A stretch of DNA of 34,429 bases from Paludibacteraceae bacterium (GTDB lineage: Bacteria > Bacteroidota > Bacteroidia > Bacteroidales > Paludibacteraceae): positions 1 to 34,429 of the forward strand of contig JAGBCD010000030.1 in the NCBI GenBank assembly GCA_017938155.1. The letters run 5' to 3'. A model generated the notes under the pieces. That model had not been told where the DNA came from, searched no databases, and saw nothing but the letters and a program-made list of their open reading frames with translations. Made by a program: the position numbers and the translations under genes. Below, piece after piece: positions 1 to 34,418 of this stretch. The stretch's first letter is position 1, and each line of letters begins with the position of its first letter.

Positions 1-32
1 TGGGGGTGACAGACCCCTCCGCCCTGCGGGCA

Positions 33-53
33 CCTCCCCTAACTTAGGGGAGG
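33..53. repeat. Palindrome at the outer edge of the left-end repeat
   Basis: CCTCCCCTAA is followed by a single C and then TTAGGGGAGG, a perfect 10-bp inverted repeat around one base. A smaller hairpin (CCGC, CCT, GCGG) lies just before it, around 18-29. The palindrome overlaps the start of the 96-bp inverted repeat. The right-end copy keeps only the inner arm (GGGGAGG) and then diverges, so the outer arm is not part of the shared unit. Confidence 0.7.
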
Positions 54-142
54 AGTTGTGAGTGATGAAACCTTGAAACAGCGAAGCGGTGAAACAAGCA
101 TCTCTGATGCGTGAAACTTTGAAACTTTGTAGCAATCGTTCG
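47..142 (+). repeat. Left copy of the 96-bp terminal inverted repeat
   Basis: Read base by base, this segment equals the reverse complement of 34323-34418 with no mismatch in 96 positions. It contains GAAAC repeats, the mini-hairpin GCGAAGC and the hairpin GCATC-TCT-GATGC, and runs into the first tandem module at 129. No ORF with coding character overlaps it: the short minus-strand ORFs here merely translate the periodic repeat. It is probably one copy of a multicopy intergenic element. If the window is a whole contig, such a repeat would explain why it ends here. Confidence 0.9.
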
Positions 143-251
143 ACCCAAAGGGGAGATAAGTAGCAATTGTTCGAGCGAATGCGAGATAAGTAGTAATCGT
201 TCGACCCAAAGGGGAGATAAGTAGCAATCGTTCGAACCGAAGGTGAGATAA
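129..251 (+). repeat. Four tandem 30-31 nt mini-hairpin modules
   Basis: There are four head-to-tail units at 129-159, 160-189, 190-220 and 221-251. Each starts GTAGCAATCGTTCG (one substitution in units 2 and 3) and ends GAGATAA. The middle varies, but always forms a short stem-loop inside a GA...GA frame: CCC-AAA-GGG, GC-GAAT-GC, CCC-AAA-GGG and ACC-GAA-GGT. The stems change on both sides together, so pairing is kept. There is no unique spacer, so this is not CRISPR. Two more modules, inverted, lie at 34276-34336. Confidence 0.9.
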
Positions 252-34275: not shown

Positions 34276-34336
34276 TTATCTCGCTTCGCTCAAACGATTG
34301 CTACTTATCTCGGCTTACGCCCCGAACGATTGCTAC
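34276..34336 (-). repeat. Two inverted mini-hairpin modules at the right end
   Basis: On the - strand these are GTAGCAATCGTTCG...GAGATAA units of 32 nt (34336-34305) and 29 nt (34304-34276), followed by GAATT as in the left array. Their inner hairpins are GGC-GTAA-GCC and GC-GAA-GC, different from all left-end stems except one GC/GC stem. Confidence 0.88.
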
Positions 34337-34418
34337 AAAGTTTCAAAGTTTCACGCATCAGAGATGCTTGTTTCACCGCTTCGCTGTTTCAAGGTTTCAT
34401 CACTCACAACTCCTCCCC
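34323..34418 (-). repeat. Right copy of the 96-bp terminal inverted repeat
   Basis: This is the exact reverse complement of 47-142. It overlaps the first right-end mini-hairpin module. The next bases toward the window edge (ATAGCAAACCA) do not match the left copy. Confidence 0.9.

Follow-up and report, generated by a model that had tools for sequence, protein, structure and literature searches.

Repeat modules and neighbouring features of the contig

The window analysed here, the whole stretch of 34,429 nucleotides, is an entire contig (C25) of a Paludibacteraceae genome of 1.96 Mb in 45 contigs (93% complete). Near its ends lie short repeat modules, four of them head to tail on the forward strand at 129-251 and two on the reverse strand at 34276-34336, and direct reading bore out both the positions and the hairpin centres that the original prediction had given them. 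On the forward strand, module 1 (129-159) consists of the leader GTAGC, the core AATCGTTCGA (134-143), the hairpin CCC-AAA-GGG (144-152) and GAGATAA (153-159); module 2 (160-189) of GTAGC, AATTGTTCGA (165-174), GC-GAAT-GC (175-182) and GAGATAA (183-189); module 3 (190-220) of GTAGT, AATCGTTCGA (195-204), again CCC-AAA-GGG (205-213) and GAGATAA (214-220); and module 4 (221-251) of GTAGC, AATCGTTCGA (226-235), ACC-GAA-GGT (236-244) and GAGATAA (245-251), after which comes the heptamer-like GAATTAAGAA. On the reverse strand, module 5 (34305-34336) reads GTAGC, AATCGTTCGG (34331-34322), GGC-GTAA-GCC (34321-34312) and GAGATAA (34311-34305), and module 6 (34276-34304) reads GTAGC, AATCGTTTGA (34299-34290), GC-GAA-GC (34289-34283) and GAGATAA (34282-34276), then GAATTC. 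The constant frame attributed to the modules holds in general but is slightly less constant than supposed, with one occurrence each of GTAGT, AATTG, TTTGA and TTCGG. When up to three mismatches are allowed, the window has 12 matches to the 14-mer of the modules, where 1.9 (sd 1.45) would be expected; none of 100 shuffles reached that number. The window has no match in Rfam at gathering scores.

The modules adjoin a composite repeat block with variable hairpins of its own, GTGAAACAAGCA-[TC TCT GA]-TGCGTGAAAC, which lies at 61-128 on the forward strand and, inverted, at 34337-34404 on the reverse strand at the other contig end. The frame of this block has 18 copies in the same genome and none in the 60 relatives searched. 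It appears as a species-specific GTGAAACAAGC-[hairpin]-GCGTGAAAC with covarying centres (TC/GA, CC/GG), found also on contigs C18, C21, C29, C31, C32 and C42. Yet another block, GACCCCTCYG-[hairpin]-CACCTCCCCTAA, with a constant frame and changing hairpins, occupies window positions 1-60 and recurs in locus L017 near 2238; the contig ends fall within or beside these repeats. With respect to the genes of the window, that at 25178-28627 matches Peptidase_C25, with a sub-threshold match to a Por secretion tail, and that at 31113-33977 matches LptD; no tie of either gene to the repeats was found.

Distribution in the genome and in the genus

The repeat extends far beyond the two places first seen. 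In the genome of the window, the exact form GTAGYAATYGTTYG occurs 20 times (0 for the reversed-pattern control) and the looser frame TTATCTC-N(4-22)-AACRATT 38 times (5 for the control); by inspection, both outer Watson-Crick pairs are present in 36 of these 38 matches, the exceptions being C17:39729 and C31:106158. Hairpins of the window arrays recur elsewhere in this genome: CCCAAAGGG on C7, C17, C29, C31 and C45, and ACCGAAGGT on C3, C5, C8 and C37, with arrays on C5 and C8. Since its hairpins occur at these other places, the array at 129-251 looks as though it had been assembled from several elements and not from one diverged duplicate.

Of the 121 genomes of the genus examined, 99 contain the frame AATCGTTCGA-N(5-16)-GAGATAAGA of this family, hereafter F1 (41 of the 51 of high quality), and its reversed control gave zero in every genome. 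In a sample of 295 genomes of the order, it was found in both members of the genus and in none of the 293 others, among which are two genera of the same family. Within the sample searched, the element family is restricted to one genus, whose members are gut bacteria. A scan of named genomes for the GTAG form returned 11 loci, 10 in Bacteroidales or Paludibacteraceae metagenome-assembled genomes (MAGs), of which four are named from goat rumen, cattle reticulum or red deer, and one archaeal; the latter, a Heimdallarchaeota match (L039), has an unpaired hairpin and was judged to be due to chance. One of the named loci, L030 from goat rumen, has a ybjQ sequence identical to that of L168 from genus member G008. 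We found no earlier description of these repeats in the literature searched, from which most subscription papers were out of reach.

Pairing and covariation of the hairpins

The original prediction held that both arms of the hairpin change together, so that pairing is kept while the sequence changes, and this holds well beyond the window. Here, and in the counts of flanks, gene context and tRNA proximity given below, identical or near-identical copies were counted once; the covariation sets include copies from the window's own genome. Among 57 distinct hairpins from 10 genomes and the named loci, 95 of the 114 outer pairs are formed, as against 56.3 (sd 3.9) when arms are shuffled (0 of 10,000 shuffles as high). 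In a set of 100 distinct hairpins drawn from 24 genomes, one viral contig and the named loci, 26 sources in all, 175 of the 200 outer pairs are Watson-Crick, the shuffled mean being 96.8 (sd 5.5) and the maximum of 20,000 shuffles 121. The stems thus do not break as often as they are kept. The 37 distinct seven-base hairpins, aligned without gaps, gave a similar picture: 85.1% of cells pair (68.7% when shuffled, 0 of 500 as high), there are 17 double-change cells against 5.9 (sd 1.8), again reached in 0 of 500 shuffles, and sliding the partner by one to three columns drops pairing from 85% to 5-50% of cells. Two of the five measures applied to this set were not above the shuffles, namely pairs changed on both sides (2 against 1.9) and further pair types (5 against 4.1, with 92 of 500 shuffles as high). 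It also counts against the general rule that in 25 of the 100 distinct hairpins the outer Watson-Crick pairs do not amount to two in a row.

Stems have also changed in place. Beside tRNA-Ser in two species (L248 and L263), an additional upstream hairpin, described below as hairpin 1, has the arms ATGCAG..CTGCAT in one and ATGCAA..TTGCAT in the other; and GC-GCAA-GC in L129 and L278 corresponds to GGG-TTTAT-CCC in L242, the left flanks being 76-77% identical over 185 nt. A contrary homologous pair is that of L050 (GCCCATTGGGC) and L101 (GCCCATTGGAC), which differ by one broken pair.

The suggestion that these are very stable tiny hairpins fared less well. Stems of the core hairpin (hairpin 2) span 0-6 bp, with 72 of the 100 distinct ones at 2-4 bp, and single modules fold no better than usual (z from -1.17 to +0.04 as RNA and from -0.95 to +0.40 as DNA, five modules). 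The predicted best fold is the expected hairpin in three of the five modules as RNA and, in a shifted register, in one of five as DNA.

Element anatomy and related families

The F1 element opens with a first hairpin, which is optional, or with a short leader that often reads G-N-A-R-T, followed by the constant linker AATCGTTCGA, a mini-hairpin with a freely varying, mostly paired stem, and the constant tail GAGATAAG. The counts of flanks, of hairpin 1 and of tRNA proximity given here and below leave out copies from the window's own genome. In the 163 remaining copies, GAGATAA is followed by G in 162 and then by A in all 163; the tail joins the target immediately before this A, with AA in 134. 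The insertion junction is consequently N^AA in most copies, the base before it usually being G. Upstream of the core, A stands at position -3 in 153 copies, T at -1 in 133 and G at -5 in 120. In 55 of 159 copies the core is directly preceded by a further stem of 5 bp or longer (26 distinct stems), as compared with 3.4% in controls; the remainder have no such second hairpin. The short form measures 29-30 bp (the insert in ybjQ is 29 bp); for the long form, with two hairpins, L130, L143 and L089 gave 41-48 bp. F1 elements are thereby among the smallest mobile elements known.

Left boundaries vary between copies. The ends AATAATCG and GATAAG are not inverted repeats of each other, and at most 1-3 ambiguous nucleotides are shared at the junctions examined; a MITE was rejected on the lack of terminal inverted repeats and on these minimal shared junctions. 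The 5' GTAG is a feature of the window's species and is not genus-wide: GTAGT precedes the core in 9 and GTAGC in 1 of the 163 copies, GACG follows the tail in 19 of them, and the GTAG 14-mer was not enriched over control in the 36 same-genus genomes searched.

Reading the loci for ATAATCG brought out further families with the same ends. F2, AATAATCGT-[GCC..GGC and others]-TAAG|AA, shares with F1 the 5' AATAATCG and the 3' AAG|AA; it occurs in 22 of 37 genomes of the genus and in none of 24 others, and is absent from the window's own genome. By inspection, its hairpins vary yet stay paired in most cases, and its insert in L036 is 25 bp. F3, AATAATCGACAGA-[hairpin]-GGCGRAG, has at least four copies. 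Shared ends around different middles are what would be expected if one machinery moves all of the families.

Filled and empty sites

That the element moves is seen from sites that are filled in one sequence and empty in another, with a precise insertion as the difference. This evidence comes from comparisons between species or between paralogous copies, with no movement seen within one strain. The clearest case is ybjQ, where the site is empty in L145 of genome G007 (ATG|AAC) and filled in L037 with exactly 29 extra bases, 307 of the other 321 positions being identical. The same site is also filled in L030 (= L168), L036 and L040, and it is empty in 24 of 31 aligned regions, the filled copies having come from the pattern scan and not from random sampling. 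On a tree of 22 rows, nine of the 31 regions (one duplicate, the others partial or distant) having been left out, the filled state needs four changes, and a tree that unites the filled copies in one clade is rejected (p-AU 0.00026). The pattern could have arisen by insertion more than once, by precise loss more than once, or by recombination of short tracts between species.

Other comparisons include L123 (filled) against L276 (empty), between species; L240 (filled) against a paralogous stretch in L245 that is empty (GTG^AATTTGTG); and an F2 nested inside an F1 hairpin at ATG^AAAC in L036. Within tandem repeats the insertion point is visible even without a relative, as in L094 of genome G035, which lies in GAATACT repeats. 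Some copies are set within heptameric tandem repeats (L094 and the flanks of L049 and L133) and some are nested (L036, L252). A search for orthologues with L131 yielded no clean empty site, most of its matches being to tRNA and other repeats.

The empty sites analysed for structure are those of short-leader F1 copies and of F2 copies whose flanks hold no second element, own-genome copies being included where the leader fitted. Stems of at least 6 bp (G-T allowed) are present at 30 of these 87 sites, compared with 23% of 615 nearby controls (stem lengths, p=0.001), and there is no excess of folding energy (p=0.38). Such a modest excess of stems, with none in folding energy, lends weak support to an insertion targeted to structure.

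Genomic context of the copies

Most copies are intergenic: 151 of 184 positions, own-genome copies included, lie outside open reading frames (ORFs) of at least 100 aa. The other 33 are inside such ORFs; ten of these were scanned against Pfam, six matched, and three carry the element in frame within a conserved protein, namely a MATE transporter gene (L203), ispE (L215), whose IspE product has about 27 residues more than PDB 1uek at that point, and a glycosyltransferase 2 gene, in which the insert is composite (L264). The insertion in ybjQ is out of frame. On either side of the ispE insert stands a direct repeat (GAATTTTCAAATCT) of about 13-14 nt, which exceeds what is seen at the other sites looked at. 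Between codirectional genes, 49 of 71 copies are in the sense orientation (p=0.002) and 22 are antisense.

Copies are also concentrated near tRNA and tmRNA genes, with 21 of 162 within 160 nt of one as compared with 2.7% of random positions in the same loci. The sixteen tRNA/tmRNA and related loci that were inspected (tRNA-Thr, Glu, Met, Pro, Asp, Ser and Lys, and tmRNA) have a common anatomy: the gene, a terminator-like hairpin, an intermediate stretch, an antisense element and a second copy of the RNA 3' end. This second copy begins in the T-loop (TT^CGA) and reaches the acceptor end in 13 of the 16, being shorter in the three tRNA-Ser loci. In several of the sixteen, the stretch before the element is partly an inverted copy of the T-arm, and in L120 the anticodon hairpin of tRNA-Met is present inverted. 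At the T-loop site occupied by F1 in L120, L297 has F2 instead, with both flanks matching, and so does L289, with a match on the right flank only. Loci with the tRNA/tmRNA arrangement include L230, L248, L252, L266, L275, L120, L121, L131, L143, L220 and L224, along with L263, which entered the proximity count and is not among the sixteen whose anatomy was inspected. We tentatively read this arrangement as hairpin-mediated template switching; it is possibly a distinct template-switch or integration phenomenon.

In viral sequences, 5 F1 and 7 F2 stretches were matched, and only those on the phage-like contig IMGVR_UViG_3300038345_000065 (L195, L302) look genuine by eye; L196-L199, L300, L301 and L303-L305 were judged by eye to be chance matches. 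This contig has eight F2 matches and one F1 match, and among its frames DNA-methyltransferase-like proteins were recognised by eye. At homologous spots of L302 and L195 it has a single F2 unit in the former and a tandem pair in the latter.

Nature of the element and means of its spread

The modules of the window are best explained as copies of a mobile element that is non-autonomous, confined to the genus and about 25-50 nt long; to this explanation as a whole we give a probability of about 0.78. The original prediction of a structured repeat family is borne out by the covarying stems, the wide spread and the mobility with precise empty sites; its proposed REP/BIME-style, RAYT-linked membership is not. 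The observations point to mobility, and none of them to a host function. Most likely the elements are selfish, with occasional side effects such as the supply of stop codons or the addition of in-frame peptides. As to mechanism, we favour a model in which a cellular enzyme acting in trans would recognise the shared ends and the fold on a single-stranded intermediate, DNA or RNA, in which the linker AATCGTTCGA would be single-stranded, and the folded intermediate would then be inserted at N^AA sites. Recognition by fold would leave the stems free to change, and foldback copying in the course of the move may rewrite some of them. The element's own end, AAG together with target sequence, could itself serve as a target, and arrays such as that at 129-251 would then form by insertion of new copies beside existing ones. 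It counts against such mobilisation in trans that no mobilising enzyme was identified.

The spread might instead be mediated by RNA: the element would enter transcripts, at tRNA T-loops or in mRNAs, and a reverse transcriptase would copy it back into DNA. The conservation of fold rather than sequence, the sense bias, and the T-loops of tRNA and tmRNA hit beside duplicated tRNA 3' ends, with inverted hairpins in some such as L120, would all fit. However, the antisense copies do not, and an RVT_1 match was found in only 6 of the 23 genus genomes searched, so that a reverse transcriptase of this kind is not required as far as tested; genomes G014 and G009 carry 9 and 7 copies yet have no RVT_1 match. 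We regard this route as possible, though somewhat unlikely. A more doubtful proposal is that the elements belong to a transposase-independent class of mobile DNA, 25-50 nt long and defined only by short constant ends and foldability, with single-stranded (possibly tRNA-associated RNA) intermediates. Their stems would be rewritten by foldback template switching each time, the hairpin sequences turning over and the pairing being automatically renewed, and the inverted hairpins and duplicated tRNA 3' ends around T-loop copies would be by-products.

REP/REPIN-type repeats, moved on lagging-strand single-stranded DNA by RAYT or another IS200/IS605-like Y1 transposase, are also small intergenic hairpins that insert beside a short motif without clear target duplication, and the window's species does have the 5' GTAG. 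In REP sub-families, too, stem residues come in alternative complementary versions, and targets that are palindromic have been reported (PMC3733652). Nevertheless, this identity is improbable here. The RAYT-like gene that the original prediction suggested seeking was not matched in the window's own genome (G000, 93% complete), where Y1_Tnp (PF01797) has 0 matches; among 37 genus genomes it matched in 15, of which one match is strong (G027, 90 bits) and the other 14 are at or below 35 bits, most with partial cover of the profile. Moreover, the GTAG is not conserved across the genus and the stems, mostly 2-4 bp, are too short. On these three points, F1 is most probably not a RAYT-driven REP. In all six own-genome contigs with at least two separate sites, copies occur in both orientations, and a lagging-strand lock was thus not seen in this genome.

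That the repeat is not mobile at all, but a conserved regulatory, protein-binding or mRNA-end-protecting hairpin spread by recombination and slippage, is very improbable. The mostly intergenic positions and the sense bias would suit such a role, and slippage could make tandem arrays, as in the one F2 unit of L302 against two in L195, but there are precise empty sites in unrelated contexts, nesting, copies on a phage-like contig, and insertions inside ybjQ, ispE, the MATE gene and the glycosyltransferase gene. Least credible is a bypassing or frameshift element that the ribosome skips in genes such as ybjQ, of the kind known from T4 gene 60 and Magnusiomyces mitochondria (PMC5009743): in L030 and L037 the frame is intact after the insert, though TAG directly follows the last upstream codon, and the hairpin loop GCTATGC supplies an ATG in frame with the downstream ybjQ, but the ybjQ of L040 and L036 carry further frame-breaking changes, the ATG and the codon before the landing site mismatch, most copies are intergenic, the three other genic copies examined are simply in frame, and it is simpler to suppose a restart at the ATG or a recent pseudogene. 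In L030 and L037, a truncated YbjQ could restart at the ATG that the hairpin supplies.

Comparison with known small elements

Returning to a small mobile element as the preferred reading, we have filed F1 and its relatives, provisionally, as a probable new Bacteroidota variant of the very-small-mobile-element kind, closest to the cyanobacterial small dispersed repeats (SDR). Elhai et al. in 2008 are said to have described the SDR of Nostoc and relatives as 21-27 nt long, with compensatory stems, and as forming families with shared structure and little shared sequence; they are reportedly embedded in heptamer repeats, nested in each other and confined to one subgroup. They are not known to have an enzyme. 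The likenesses are that F1 stems are supported by compensatory changes and that some F1 and F2 copies lie in heptameric tandem repeats or are nested in each other. In size, the F1 insert of ybjQ (29 bp), the F2 insert of L036 (25 bp) and the long F1 forms (41-48 bp) overlap the range of the SDR but are larger. On the other hand, SDRs belong to another phylum and the ends AATAATCG...AAG|AA probably differ from theirs; the optional second hairpin, the T-loop hotspots and the in-frame gene insertions are features of F1.

Rickettsia palindromic elements, of about 100-150 bp, insert in frame in conserved protein genes; the genic in-frame copies of F1 resemble them, although the Rickettsia elements are longer. 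Mitochondrial double-hairpin elements have two hairpins joined by a linker. With these and with GC clusters, F1 shares tiny size, presence/absence polymorphism, merging and short AG/ACT flanks, whereas it resides on a bacterial chromosome, its hairpin 1 is optional, and GC clusters are more constant in sequence (PMC4478555, PMC2800124). REPs and REPINs (PMC3733652, PMC3116915) resemble F1 in being small, intergenic hairpins that form arrays and have sub-families with alternative complementary stems; F1 differs in that no RAYT was found, in having no conserved GTAG/CGTC tag and in its much shorter stems, those of most GTAG REPs being 6-9 bp (PMC3733652). It differs further in the constant linker beside its hairpin and in the several families that share ends in one genus.

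The SDRs and the mitochondrial hairpin elements leave the question of how an element can move when it has no room to encode anything and conserves only its fold. A single genus here offers 99 carrier genomes among 121 and at least two families with shared ends; its copies show dozens of stems, have empty counterparts that differ precisely by the insert, and join their targets at a defined junction. A comparison of carriers with non-carriers can now seek the mover, and the turnover of the stems can be traced site by site.
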